Shown: positions 14,432 through 16,834 of the stretch, piece by piece | How the letters are laid out: each line of letters begins with the position of its first letter | Position numbering within the stretch: position 1 is the first letter of the stretch | Made by a program: the position numbers and the translations under genes | The notes under the pieces: generated by a model | Databases searched by the model: none | Told to the model about the DNA's origin: nothing | What the model saw: only the letters and a program-made list of their open reading frames with translations | Source of the DNA: a virus | Direction: 5' to 3' (one strand) | Virus record (IMG/VR): IMGVR_UViG_3300044846_001622 | Location: 1 to 21,017 of that record | Length of the DNA stretch: 21,017 bases

Positions 14432-14867
14432 TACCAATTGATAAAAGGTTTTTTGCATCCTCATATATTGCCGTTTCGTTTTTGTATTTCATTTGTAAAT
14501 AATCTGTGTAAGCATTCACGCTATGTATAACGGTGCTATGATCACGAATTAAAAAATTACCTACGTTCTTTAAAGTATAGTTAAAATATTTGACTGTGAT
14601 ATAACAAAATAATTGACGTGCTATAACTATTTCACGCTTTCTGTTCTTGGAAATTATGTCGTGTGGCATTATACCACTGGCATCACAAACTTTTTGCAAA
14701 ATTTCTGTTAGTTCTTTGTTCTTGTTCATCTTGTGAATTGGGTTTATAATCATTTCTTTTAAGCGTTGTATTTCTTTTTGGTAGTTGCGTTCAGTTACTT
14801 CTACTTTGTTTTCTAAATATCGTACCTGACGTCTTTCTTTAAGATATAAAACATAATAATCTATCAT
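14418..14867 (-). CDS. DnaA domain IV-like DNA-binding protein without ATPase
   Basis: 149 residues. Residues 1-45 form a coiled coil (RRQVRYLENKVEVTE). Residues about 53-120 match the DNA-binding domain IV of the initiator DnaA: ISKNRKREIVIARQ (72-85) is the basic loop and helix, and IRDHSTVIHSV (107-117) is the DnaA signature, normally RDHTTV, which contacts the origin box. The AAA+ ATPase of DnaA is absent. It overlaps the DnaB-like helicase gene by ATGA. A likely role is recognising an origin or competing with host DnaA; the fold is well supported, the role inferred. Confidence 0.8.
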   Translation of the reverse strand: MIDYYVLYLKERRQVRYLENKVEVTERNYQKEIQRLKEMIINPIHKMNKNKELTEILQKVCDASGIMPHDIISKNRKREIVIARQLFCYITVKYFNYTLKNVGNFLIRDHSTVIHSVNAYTDYLQMKYKNETAIYEDAKNLLSIGNAKG

Positions 14868-16093
14868 AAAATTTCTTTATAACGTGTGTACTTTCCTTCA
14901 AATGACATTGGAATAGTTATCGTACTGCCGTGTCTGTTCTTGCCTATAATTAATTCACAATCGTTTTCTATATCTGTTTGTTCTTGCTGGTAATATTGTG
15001 GTCTAAATGGAAACATTACTAAATCAGCGTCTTGTTCTATACTTCCTGATTCTCTCAGGTCTGAAAGCATTGGTCTTTTGTCTGCACGTTCTTCACACTT
15101 TCTACTTAGTTGAGCCAATGCAATTACAGTAATGCCTAAATCCTTAGCAATTATTTTTAAGTTGCGTGAAATCTCTGCAATTTCTTGTTCTCGATTTTGT
15201 TTTGTGCCTTTAATCAATTGCAAGTAATCTATAATTAAAATATTCAATCCGTGTTTTGCTTTGTGAAATTGAGCCTTTGCTCTAATATCTGCAATAGTCG
15301 TTTTCGTGTCATCGTCTACAAAGAAATCATTTTGCAATCGGTACAAAGTTTGTGAAATATGTTCGTGTTCATTCGTCTTTAAATTACCACCACGAATTTT
15401 ATAATTCTCAATATTTGCAAAGAATGAAATATAACGCTTACTTAGTTCTTCACTACTCATTTCTAAACTCATAAATAAAACTTTTGCATTTTGACACGCA
15501 CTTATTGTAAGCGATAAAGCAATGGCAGTTTTCCCCGAACCTGGTCGACCAGCAATGATAACTAAATTACCTTTATTCCAACCACCAATATATTTGTCTA
15601 ACATTCTCCAGCCCGTTGTGATACCCATTAACTTTTCGCCACGTTGCATTTGTTGTTCTAAATCGTCAATTACCTTTGCAGTTACCTTTGACATTGGTAA
15701 TGGTTCTTTGTCAATTGTTATATTTGCTTCTTGAGTTATTAAGTCAATATCTTTTAAAATCAAATCTAATGTGTTAAACGTATTTAAACCACTCAATTTT
15801 TCAATCAATTGGGTTTTCTTATACTCTATATCCAATTCAAAAAGATAATGCTTTAAATCAGTGCTATAAGCGTATGAATTTGTGAATTGTGTTAACTCAA
15901 ATGCTTTGCCTTTAAATTGACGTGCCAAACTTACTAAGTCAATTGGATTGTTGTTAAGATATGATAATTGCATAAACTCAATTATTTCTTTATTCCACCC
16001 CTCAAACCAATATGGTTTTATTTTTGGTAAAAATACGTGTGTTGCTTTGTCTTGTATCAAGCATCCTATTATGTAACTTTCTCTATTAATCAT
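14864..16093 (-). CDS. DnaB-family replicative helicase
   Basis: 409 residues, slightly short for DnaB. Residues 1-95 match the N-terminal helical domain (RESYIIGCLIQD). The RecA-like motor has Walker A AGRPGSGKTA (181-190), Walker B LIIDYLQLI (286-294), and the downstream segments QLSRKCEERADKRPMLSDLRESGSIEQDADLV, with the glutamine and arginines used in ATP hydrolysis and ring contacts. It unwinds DNA at the phage replication fork. It overlaps the DUF6291 gene by eight bases and the DnaA-like gene by four. The DUF6291 protein is its probable loader. Confidence 0.93.
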   Translation of the reverse strand: MINRESYIIGCLIQDKATHVFLPKIKPYWFEGWNKEIIEFMQLSYLNNNPIDLVSLARQFKGKAFELTQFTNSYAYSTDLKHYLFELDIEYKKTQLIEKLSGLNTFNTLDLILKDIDLITQEANITIDKEPLPMSKVTAKVIDDLEQQMQRGEKLMGITTGWRMLDKYIGGWNKGNLVIIAGRPGSGKTAIALSLTISACQNAKVLFMSLEMSSEELSKRYISFFANIENYKIRGGNLKTNEHEHISQTLYRLQNDFFVDDDTKTTIADIRAKAQFHKAKHGLNILIIDYLQLIKGTKQNREQEIAEISRNLKIIAKDLGITVIALAQLSRKCEERADKRPMLSDLRESGSIEQDADLVMFPFRPQYYQQEQTDIENDCELIIGKNRHGSTITIPMSFEGKYTRYKEIL

Positions 16094-16727
16094 CGTTTAA
16101 TGTTCCAAATTTAGGTTTAATTGTAATTTGTTGTGTTGGTTGTTTGTATGGTAATTCATCATTCCATCTTTCACCATTCAAATAAGTTGTTAAATGTGGA
16201 ATGAAATCTTTTTTGTCGTTGTCGATGTGATTTTTAATGTATAAAGGTATGTGATTTCTAATTAATTCTTTCTTTGCTTTTGTCAATTTATTGTAAAGTT
16301 CTTCTGATTTCTTTTTATTTCCCACTTTTAAATACATATTCCAAATAGAATCAAAATCTAAATTATTTATTATATCACTTTCATTATCATTATCATTAAC
16401 ACTATCACTTACACTATCAGCTTTTTTGGGTTTTTCAAAAAAGGGTTGGGTTTTTTGGGTTTCTGTGGGTTTCTTTGGTCTACCACCTTTTGCCCCATTA
16501 ACTGATTGTTTATCAATATATTCTTCATAGCGTTTCAAATCACGCTTTAAAGATTGTTTAATAGGTTCAAATGCAATGTTAATAATCAAATCCTCACTAA
16601 TTGGATTTTCATCGTTTACATAAGCAAAAATATGCTTAATTAATTTACCAGCAATTTCGTCTGGTAGTTGGTTAAATACTCCACTTTGGTCTGTGTAAAG
16701 TATAAATGATTTTTTGTCTTTTGCCAT
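16086..16727 (-). CDS. DUF6291-like replication protein, possible helicase loader
   Basis: 213 residues. Residues about 5-85 (SFILYTDQSGVFNQLPDEIAGKLIKHIF, ISEDLIINIAFEPIKQSLKRDLKRYEEY) fit DUF6291, common in Bacteroidota phages next to helicases. A Gly-rich basic linker (NGAKGGRPKK) and an acidic, low-complexity stretch (SVSDSVNDNDNESD) follow. The C-terminus (FDSIWNMYLKVGNKKKSEELYNKL, then FIPHLTTYLNGERWND) resembles the end of phage replisome organisers. It probably brings DnaB to the origin. The start codon touches the U7 tract of a terminator-like hairpin, so expression is probably controlled by that leader. Confidence 0.75.
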   Translation of the reverse strand: MAKDKKSFILYTDQSGVFNQLPDEIAGKLIKHIFAYVNDENPISEDLIINIAFEPIKQSLKRDLKRYEEYIDKQSVNGAKGGRPKKPTETQKTQPFFEKPKKADSVSDSVNDNDNESDIINNLDFDSIWNMYLKVGNKKKSEELYNKLTKAKKELIRNHIPLYIKNHIDNDKKDFIPHLTTYLNGERWNDELPYKQPTQQITIKPKFGTLNDD

Positions 16728-16822
16728 AAAAAAACCCCATCAAAAATGTAGCAGTAGGATTGCAACAAATTCAACGGGGCAAAAGTGGTTAAAGTATCGA
16801 GATATCCTACACCTCACTTAAC
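16728..16822 (-). ncRNA. Structured leader RNA with complementary hairpin loops and U7 end
   Basis: Between the ParB-like gene and the DUF6291 gene. Hairpin 1 (about 16787-16820) pairs GTTAAGTGAG with CTC..AC..TTAAC with small bulges; its 11-base loop contains GTAGGAT. Hairpin 2 (16735-16779) has two 19-base arms, 16 of 19 pairs formed (three G-U, three U-U mismatches), and a 7-base loop ATCCTAC, followed by seven T that end at the ATG. The two loops are perfectly complementary over seven bases, allowing a kissing interaction. It could be an attenuator, a small RNA, or a control of replication. The structures are hand-folded; the function is unknown. Confidence 0.55.
16735..16779 (-). terminator. 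Terminator-like hairpin abutting a start codon
   Basis: The second hairpin of the leader: CCCC to GGGG outer stem, then U7 at 16734-16728, then ATG at 16727-16725. It has the form of an intrinsic terminator. Efficient termination would leave the replication operon untranscribed, so it is either leaky or regulated. Confidence 0.6.
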
Positions 16823-16826
16823 GAAT

Positions 16827-16834
16827 CAAAGATA
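16827..16834 (-). promoter_or_regulatory. Host-type -7 box candidate before the leader
   Basis: Minus strand TATCTTTG, a perfect TAnnTTTG match, directly after the ParB-like stop. No good TTTG lies 19-21 bases upstream (ATGA or AATG there), so the promoter is only half supported. A transcript would start about 16820, at the base of hairpin 1. Confidence 0.4.

Follow-up and report, generated by a model that had tools for sequence, protein, structure and literature searches.

Covarying complementary loops in the leader of a phage replication operon: a candidate kissing-loop attenuator in phages of Bacteroidota

Introduction

How might a phage control its replication operon through a leader RNA whose two hairpins carry perfectly complementary loops? 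Such a leader lies in the stretch of DNA analyzed here (the window), an IMG/VR virus record of 21,017 bases with the gene content of a tailed phage, relatives of which occur, by comparison of gene content, among Flavobacterium phages. Nearly all plausible genes of the window are on the minus strand, where the leader sits between a ParB-like gene (17611-16835) and the replication operon. The first gene of the operon (16086-16727), assigned to DUF6291 and phrog_19415, is similar to phage replication initiation proteins (phrog_270) and is followed on the same strand by genes for a DnaB-like replicative helicase (14864-16093) and for a protein with the DnaA C-terminal helix-turn-helix (PF08299; 14418-14867).

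Two other features of the minus strand were noted in passing. Shortly after the replication genes lies a phosphoadenosine phosphosulfate reductase-like gene (phrog_424; 14318-13572), and Cellulophaga phage phi19:3 likewise has one near its replication genes. At 7507-7400 there are two tandem terminator-like hairpins (AACCC...GGGGTT plus a T tail), the first ending in T7-ATG and a TATATTTG box lying between the two; by eye, their loops are not complementary.

Organization of the leader

Read on the minus strand from 16834 to 16728, the leader comprises a TAnnTTTG box, hairpin 1, a 9-nt linker, a terminator-type hairpin 2 (hp2) and a run of seven uridines (U7), followed by the ATG of the operon (16727). 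Within hairpin 1 (16822-16789), covariation supports an outer stem, P1, formed by TTAAGT (16816-16821) and ACTTTAA (16789-16795, with one extra T); an inner stem, P2, formed by GAGGT (16811-16815) and ATCTC (16799-16803); and loop 1, GTAGGAT (16804-16810), as one side of a putative kissing helix. A 3-nt bulge (16796-16798) precedes the 3' strand of P1 and has this length in 66 of the 81 leaders described below; the linker (16780-16788) measures 8-11 nt in all 81. The arms of hp2 (5' arm, 16761-16779; 3' arm, 16735-16753) are supported by both folding and covariation, and covariation identifies the loop between them, ATCCTAC (16754-16760), as the other side of the kissing helix. The U7 tract (16728-16734), whose alignment columns are nearly invariant, is the predicted terminator tail.

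Two hairpins with perfectly complementary loops had been proposed in the initial annotation of this DNA, and both are borne out, although they differ in how far the window alone reveals them. Hairpin 2 (16779-16735), with two 19-nt arms in which 16 of 19 positions are paired and a 7-nt loop, has a folding energy of -19.0 kcal/mol (z -3.7), a value equaled by none of 200 shuffles. The stability of hairpin 1 alone is ordinary in the same kind of comparison (z +0.5), so that the window sequence by itself could not establish it, and the energy model applied to the window alone draws part of GTAGGAT into the hairpin 1 stem. That GTAGGAT is exactly the 7-nt loop is visible only through the comparison of leaders.

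Covariation among related leaders

We retrieved 80 viral loci by similarity to the downstream protein and compared their upstream DNA, which displayed the same layout with other loop sequences and with complementarity kept. In a seed alignment of 11 clean leaders, 98.5% of cells pair and 25 of 37 pairs are changed on both sides; the kissing helix is Watson-Crick in 77/77 cells, with six of its seven pairs doubly changed, and no shuffle and no slid register comes near the pairing scores. A covariance model (R1) was built and then used to find leaders in the remaining loci. It matched in most of them, in close relatives of the window, and in contigs with a small open reading frame (ORF) inserted between the leader and the replication gene, while upstream of some replication-gene homologs in other contigs the model recognized no leader. 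One weak match (L078) was set aside as a chance match.

The model yielded 81 distinct leaders with the layout of the window, all from phage contigs and containing 22 different loop pairs. Of the 563 cells in their kissing helix, 558 are Watson-Crick and none is G-U; the five unpaired cells all come from a single misaligned row (L024; true pair, GGTCAG/CTGACC). P1 is paired in 94.1% of cells and P2 in 98.3%, double changes being present in five of six and five of five pairs, respectively, and the whole-structure scores are attained by 0/500 shuffles. This alignment was fitted to the model and is biased towards the model's nested stems; the kissing helix is absent from the model, and its pairing is therefore an independent test. 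A natural double compensation is seen between the window (GTAGGAT/ATCCTAC) and L004 (GTCAGAT/ATCTGAC), whose leaders are otherwise nearly identical. Positions 1 and 2 of loop 1 are nearly constant, as GU.

The viral collection was also searched blind, with the promoter end and the hairpin 1 stem fixed and the loop left free. At 49 of 59 distinct sites, the loop was matched by its own exact reverse complement at a gap of 42-44 nt further downstream, against 12 of 2960 when the loops of other sites were used as a control, and the ten failing sites lacked the leader layout. Covariation and the blind search together exclude chance complementarity and indicate that the match between the loops has been under selection. 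Compensatory changes in loops and stems alike, which the initial annotation had named as the check on its structure, are strongly in evidence and support its suggestion of a kissing interaction or a switch between structures.

We considered hypervariability of the loops as a sign of diversifying selection and rejected it: between close pairs of leaders, loops change less than hp2 stems, and their rate of change is no higher than that of other paired positions. A general scan for kissing leaders across all fetched loci, a set enriched by design, detected 108 among 2036 terminators versus 3.8 expected. The listed matches outside the class of the window (class A) came almost all from leader families already recognized in this comparison, and nothing in the scan pointed to a broader class among unrelated contigs.

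Strand, promoter, and terminator

The hp2 stems of the 81 leaders contain 308 G-U cells versus a single A-C cell, which identifies the selected molecule as the sense-strand RNA. The share of G-U pairs is 0 in the kissing helix versus 24% in the lower hp2 stem, so exact complementarity matters in the former; P2 and the top of hp2 are also poor in G-U, and the contrast is with the long stem, not with every helix. The G-U frequency of the lower stem (columns 65-73 of alignment A5), about a quarter of cells, is itself unusual and would weaken hp2 or avoid a perfect DNA palindrome.

The -7 promoter element of the window, TATCTTTG (16827-16834), is of the TAnnTTTG type of Bacteroidota by its position and the published consensus (PMC6847099), and in 76 of the 81 leaders the box precedes the first P1 base by exactly 5 nt. 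The element spans -12 to -5 in F. johnsoniae (PMC6847099); this position and the fixed box spacing place the +1 at the base of hairpin 1, at 16822 in the window. With this predicted start, the box has the location of a Bacteroidota sigma-A promoter, and it is probably used as one; the idea that it is placed to start the leader RNA has held at one fixed distance across nearly all of these leaders. We discarded a second promoter in the linker: a sequence resembling the box with one mismatch (GATATTTG) was noted by eye in only part of the members and is not conserved. On the opposite strand, a search limited to the TAnnTTTG type found a promoter in only 6/81 leaders, again not conserved.

Hairpin 2 has the features of an intrinsic terminator, a GC-rich stem base with a near-invariant U-tract directly after it, and transcription would be expected to end at U7, giving a terminated RNA of predicted length ~95 nt in the window (16822-16728). 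The suggestion of an attenuator before the operon is supported. That of a classic riboswitch is not, given that the leaders have no conserved unpaired pocket and that their loops vary.

The placement of U7 against the start codon, also part of the initial annotation, is a trait of the window's own family, in which 55 of the 57 leaders with an open frame found have the start codon 0-6 nt past the U-tract, and does not extend to distant relatives. Bacteroidota initiate translation without Shine-Dalgarno pairing, and structure at the start codon reduces initiation (PMC6847099); a closed hp2 beside the ATG should therefore also impede translation. Competition between termination and translation at one spot suits the window's subfamily without holding generally, the start codons of distant relatives lying farther away.

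Exchange of the first gene

The first genes behind the leader encode DUF6291, Lin1244_N, HTH_36, and replisome-organizer-like proteins, a possible GIY-YIG endonuclease fragment, and small ORFs without an assigned family. One loop pair occurs with different first genes, and one kind of first gene occurs with different loops. Phages whose DnaB is 95-97% identical to that of the window have a different leader, loop pair, and first gene, and in phages mumin and snusmum a leader of 91% identity precedes a small ORF and a helicase, which replace the lillamy-type replication genes. Because the first gene is exchanged while the leader stays, control does not depend on any single protein product. We also observed a family of small proteins (about 65-77 aa, M..TYTTQTT.. 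/ M..KTKT..; L052 2765-2989 and relatives L048, L049, L254, L278, and L296) encoded between leader and replication gene, none of which matched Pfam or PHROG.

Phage isolates, other classes, and hosts

The layout is present in the isolated Flavobacterium phages lillamy, filifjonk, mumin, snusmum, and morran. The lillamy leader matches 46 GenBank records, and elemo phages with the leader layout account for 68 records. Loop pairs differ between the isolate groups with complementarity kept: GTGAGACG/CGTCTCAC in lillamy, GTGGAACG/CGTTCCAC in mumin, and GTGAGAAG/CTTCTCAC in morran. Cellulophaga phages phi19:3 and phi13:2 have the layout with the loop order reversed (CTCTCACAA / TTGTGAGAG). Loop spacing is longer in lillamy-, mumin-, and elemo-type phages (54-63 nt), and in lillamy-type isolates the start codon lies about 50 nt past the U-tract. 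Outside the architecture, the sequences of the isolate groups and of the window's class gave no convincing alignment, and no DNA similar to a class A leader was found in the phage collection; the groups may be homologous to the window's class or convergent with it.

A second class of kissing leader (class B; L046, L057, L060-L065, L075, L084, L088, and L095) has the loops GGTGGCA/TGCCACC, a T9 tract, and a start codon about 12 nt further on. Weak model matches in L007 (5891-5976) and L008 (9113-9198) (E 0.012), with complementary loops TAGTGG/CCACTA before a start codon, perhaps represent a further class. Among host genomes, 0/399 of one bacterial family matched the model, a weak negative obtained with strict filters and without a positive control, and seven bacterial genomes with relatives of the replication genes gave one weak model match (E 0.06).

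A kissing-loop attenuator as the favored mechanism

The reading that we favor, and to which we would give about an even chance, is that the leader of the replication operon is a ligand-free kissing-loop attenuator that works by capture of the terminator loop. In this model the RNA would start at the foot of hairpin 1 or immediately beside it. Hairpin 1 would fold first and expose its 7-nt loop; the loop would then pair with the emerging terminator loop sequence before the 3' arm of the terminator exists. With a linker of only 8-11 nt, kissing with P1 closed would be difficult to reconcile with a formed lower terminator stem; closure of the terminator would therefore be delayed and the polymerase would continue into the replication genes. 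This opening would also free the start codon in the window's subfamily. Were the loops left unpaired, for example with loop 1 occupied by another molecule, the terminator would close and the ~95-nt RNA would be released. A second leader RNA occupying loop 1 would be the most attractive candidate for the trigger, as a hypothesis only. We infer from the comparisons a kissing contact in the cell, its competition with the terminator, antitermination, the direction of control, and any signal.

Energetics and geometry bear on this model in different ways. At about -23 kcal/mol, hp2 is more stable than the kissing helix (about -12 kcal/mol of stacking) and would win at equilibrium, so kissing can affect termination only while hp2 is incomplete; given the greater stability of the full terminator, kissing might do no more than decorate or reinforce it. 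When the leaders are modeled as straight rods (6 A per nt, ignoring bends, bulges, and coaxial kinks), 0/81 can accommodate P1, P2, kissing, and full hp2 together, whereas 81/81 can accommodate kissing and full hp2 once P1 opens. The longer loop spacing of the isolates would weaken this steric conflict.

Alternative explanations

The same RNA might instead work in trans as a sensor of copy number or superinfection, one strand encoding both partners of an antisense-like control: the terminated ~95-nt leader would use its loops to bind leaders still being transcribed from other genome copies, either by pairing loop 2 of one RNA to loop 1 of the next or as a double-kissing dimer, and would shift them to termination. 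We consider this doubtful but worth weighing. Two fully complementary 7-nt loops on one RNA could dimerize, terminator and promoter alone predict a free small RNA, and in plasmid pT181 kissing is the means by which an antisense attenuator controls a terminator. The different loop pairs of phages with DnaB 95-97% identical are what private specificities would produce, but the loops change no faster than other paired positions in close pairs and so give no sign of diversifying selection. Copies of a contig's own loops elsewhere in the same contig are at chance (15 found versus 16.8 expected), and the short conserved linker fits function in cis better. Rather unlikely, in our estimation, is a self-addressing control of this kind, in which one RNA holds both halves of the kissing pair and, once terminated, acts in trans on leaders being made from other genome copies. 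Each loop pair would then serve as a private address, setting the phage's genome copy number and shutting out phages that share its loops; this would resemble plasmid incompatibility, but without an antisense gene.

Kissing could also be constitutive, locking a compact, nuclease-resistant small RNA or strengthening the terminator without any switching; the RNA would then have its role elsewhere or insulate the operon. Strict Watson-Crick pairing is in keeping with a permanent contact, and hp2 alone is a good predicted terminator. The rod model, however, sets the class A kissing contact in conflict with P1 plus full hp2, and in the window's subfamily, with the U-tract directly against the start codon, a terminator that always acted would shut off genes that have no room for a later promoter. 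We regard this explanation as unlikely.

Rop recognizes a kissing complex in ColE1, and a phage or host protein, antiterminator or repressor, might similarly recognize the kissing fold and set termination or translation. Conservation of the fold while loop sequence varies, together with the nearly constant GU of loop 1, would suit such a protein, but no linked gene is common to all loci and the first gene varies, making this improbable. A DNA-level element, either an origin structure or the inverted half-sites of a repressor operator, adjoining the replication genes with its perfect inverted 7-mers, is scarcely credible given the G-U excess in hp2 that marks sense RNA, the location of both 7-mers in apical loops, and a spacing that varies over 46-63 nt without helical phase.

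Relation to known systems

Attenuation by kissing with a terminator loop, the mechanism that we favor, is a known principle. In the guanidine-IV riboswitch, formation of a kissing loop impedes the terminator and increases read-through (PMC11611296; PMC10907184); as the terminator stem grows, the linker becomes shorter and the kissing loop is sterically hindered (PMC11611296). As in that riboswitch (mepA), kissing between an upstream hairpin and the terminator would oppose the complete terminator in the phage leaders, where the contact is predicted from covariation in 81 leaders. Unlike guanidine-IV, which controls guanidine export, the phage leaders precede and would control replication genes, lack a conserved aptamer and a conserved unpaired pocket, and have 22 loop pairs that vary freely.

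In pT181-type plasmids, the leader terminator of a replication gene is controlled by kissing hairpins (PMC4878617). The phage leader resembles these in its predicted intrinsic terminator (hp2 plus U7) ahead of a replication gene and differs in having both loops on the sense RNA, the pT181 partner being an opposite-strand antisense RNA. Two fully complementary 7-nt loops are likewise linked to replication control in RNAI-RNAII of ColE1; there, however, two opposite-strand RNAs and a primer mechanism are involved, in place of the one RNA of the phage leaders. The L5-L13 contact of the cobalamin riboswitch is a loop-loop contact in cis between the leader and an expression-platform hairpin (PMC10907184), but that system is ligand dependent and translational and has a conserved aptamer sequence.

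Rfam 15 gave 0 matches in the window at the curated gathering cutoff, and a local search with E up to 10 returned chance-level matches only. In the relatives, Rfam detected only a tRNA and a DUF805b RNA, both outside the leader; the latter (L242 3272-3306, 52 bits) closely precedes a ParB-like gene of Flavobacterium phage lillamy9-1. We found no description of the leader in open-access papers (including PMC8040213), subscription papers being outside the search. Its ligand-independent use in phage replication leaders, with matched loops that vary freely, thus appears to be undescribed for kissing with a terminator loop.

If the favored reading is true, these leaders would constitute an undescribed and widespread cis-regulatory RNA of phages of the Bacteroidota, a phylum with little known RNA control. 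They would offer at least 22 natural orthogonal loop pairs for ligand-free terminator control, on which kissing-loop antitermination and synthetic attenuators could be tried out. The leader is present in virulent Flavobacterium isolates whose hosts are in culture, making the mechanism directly testable.
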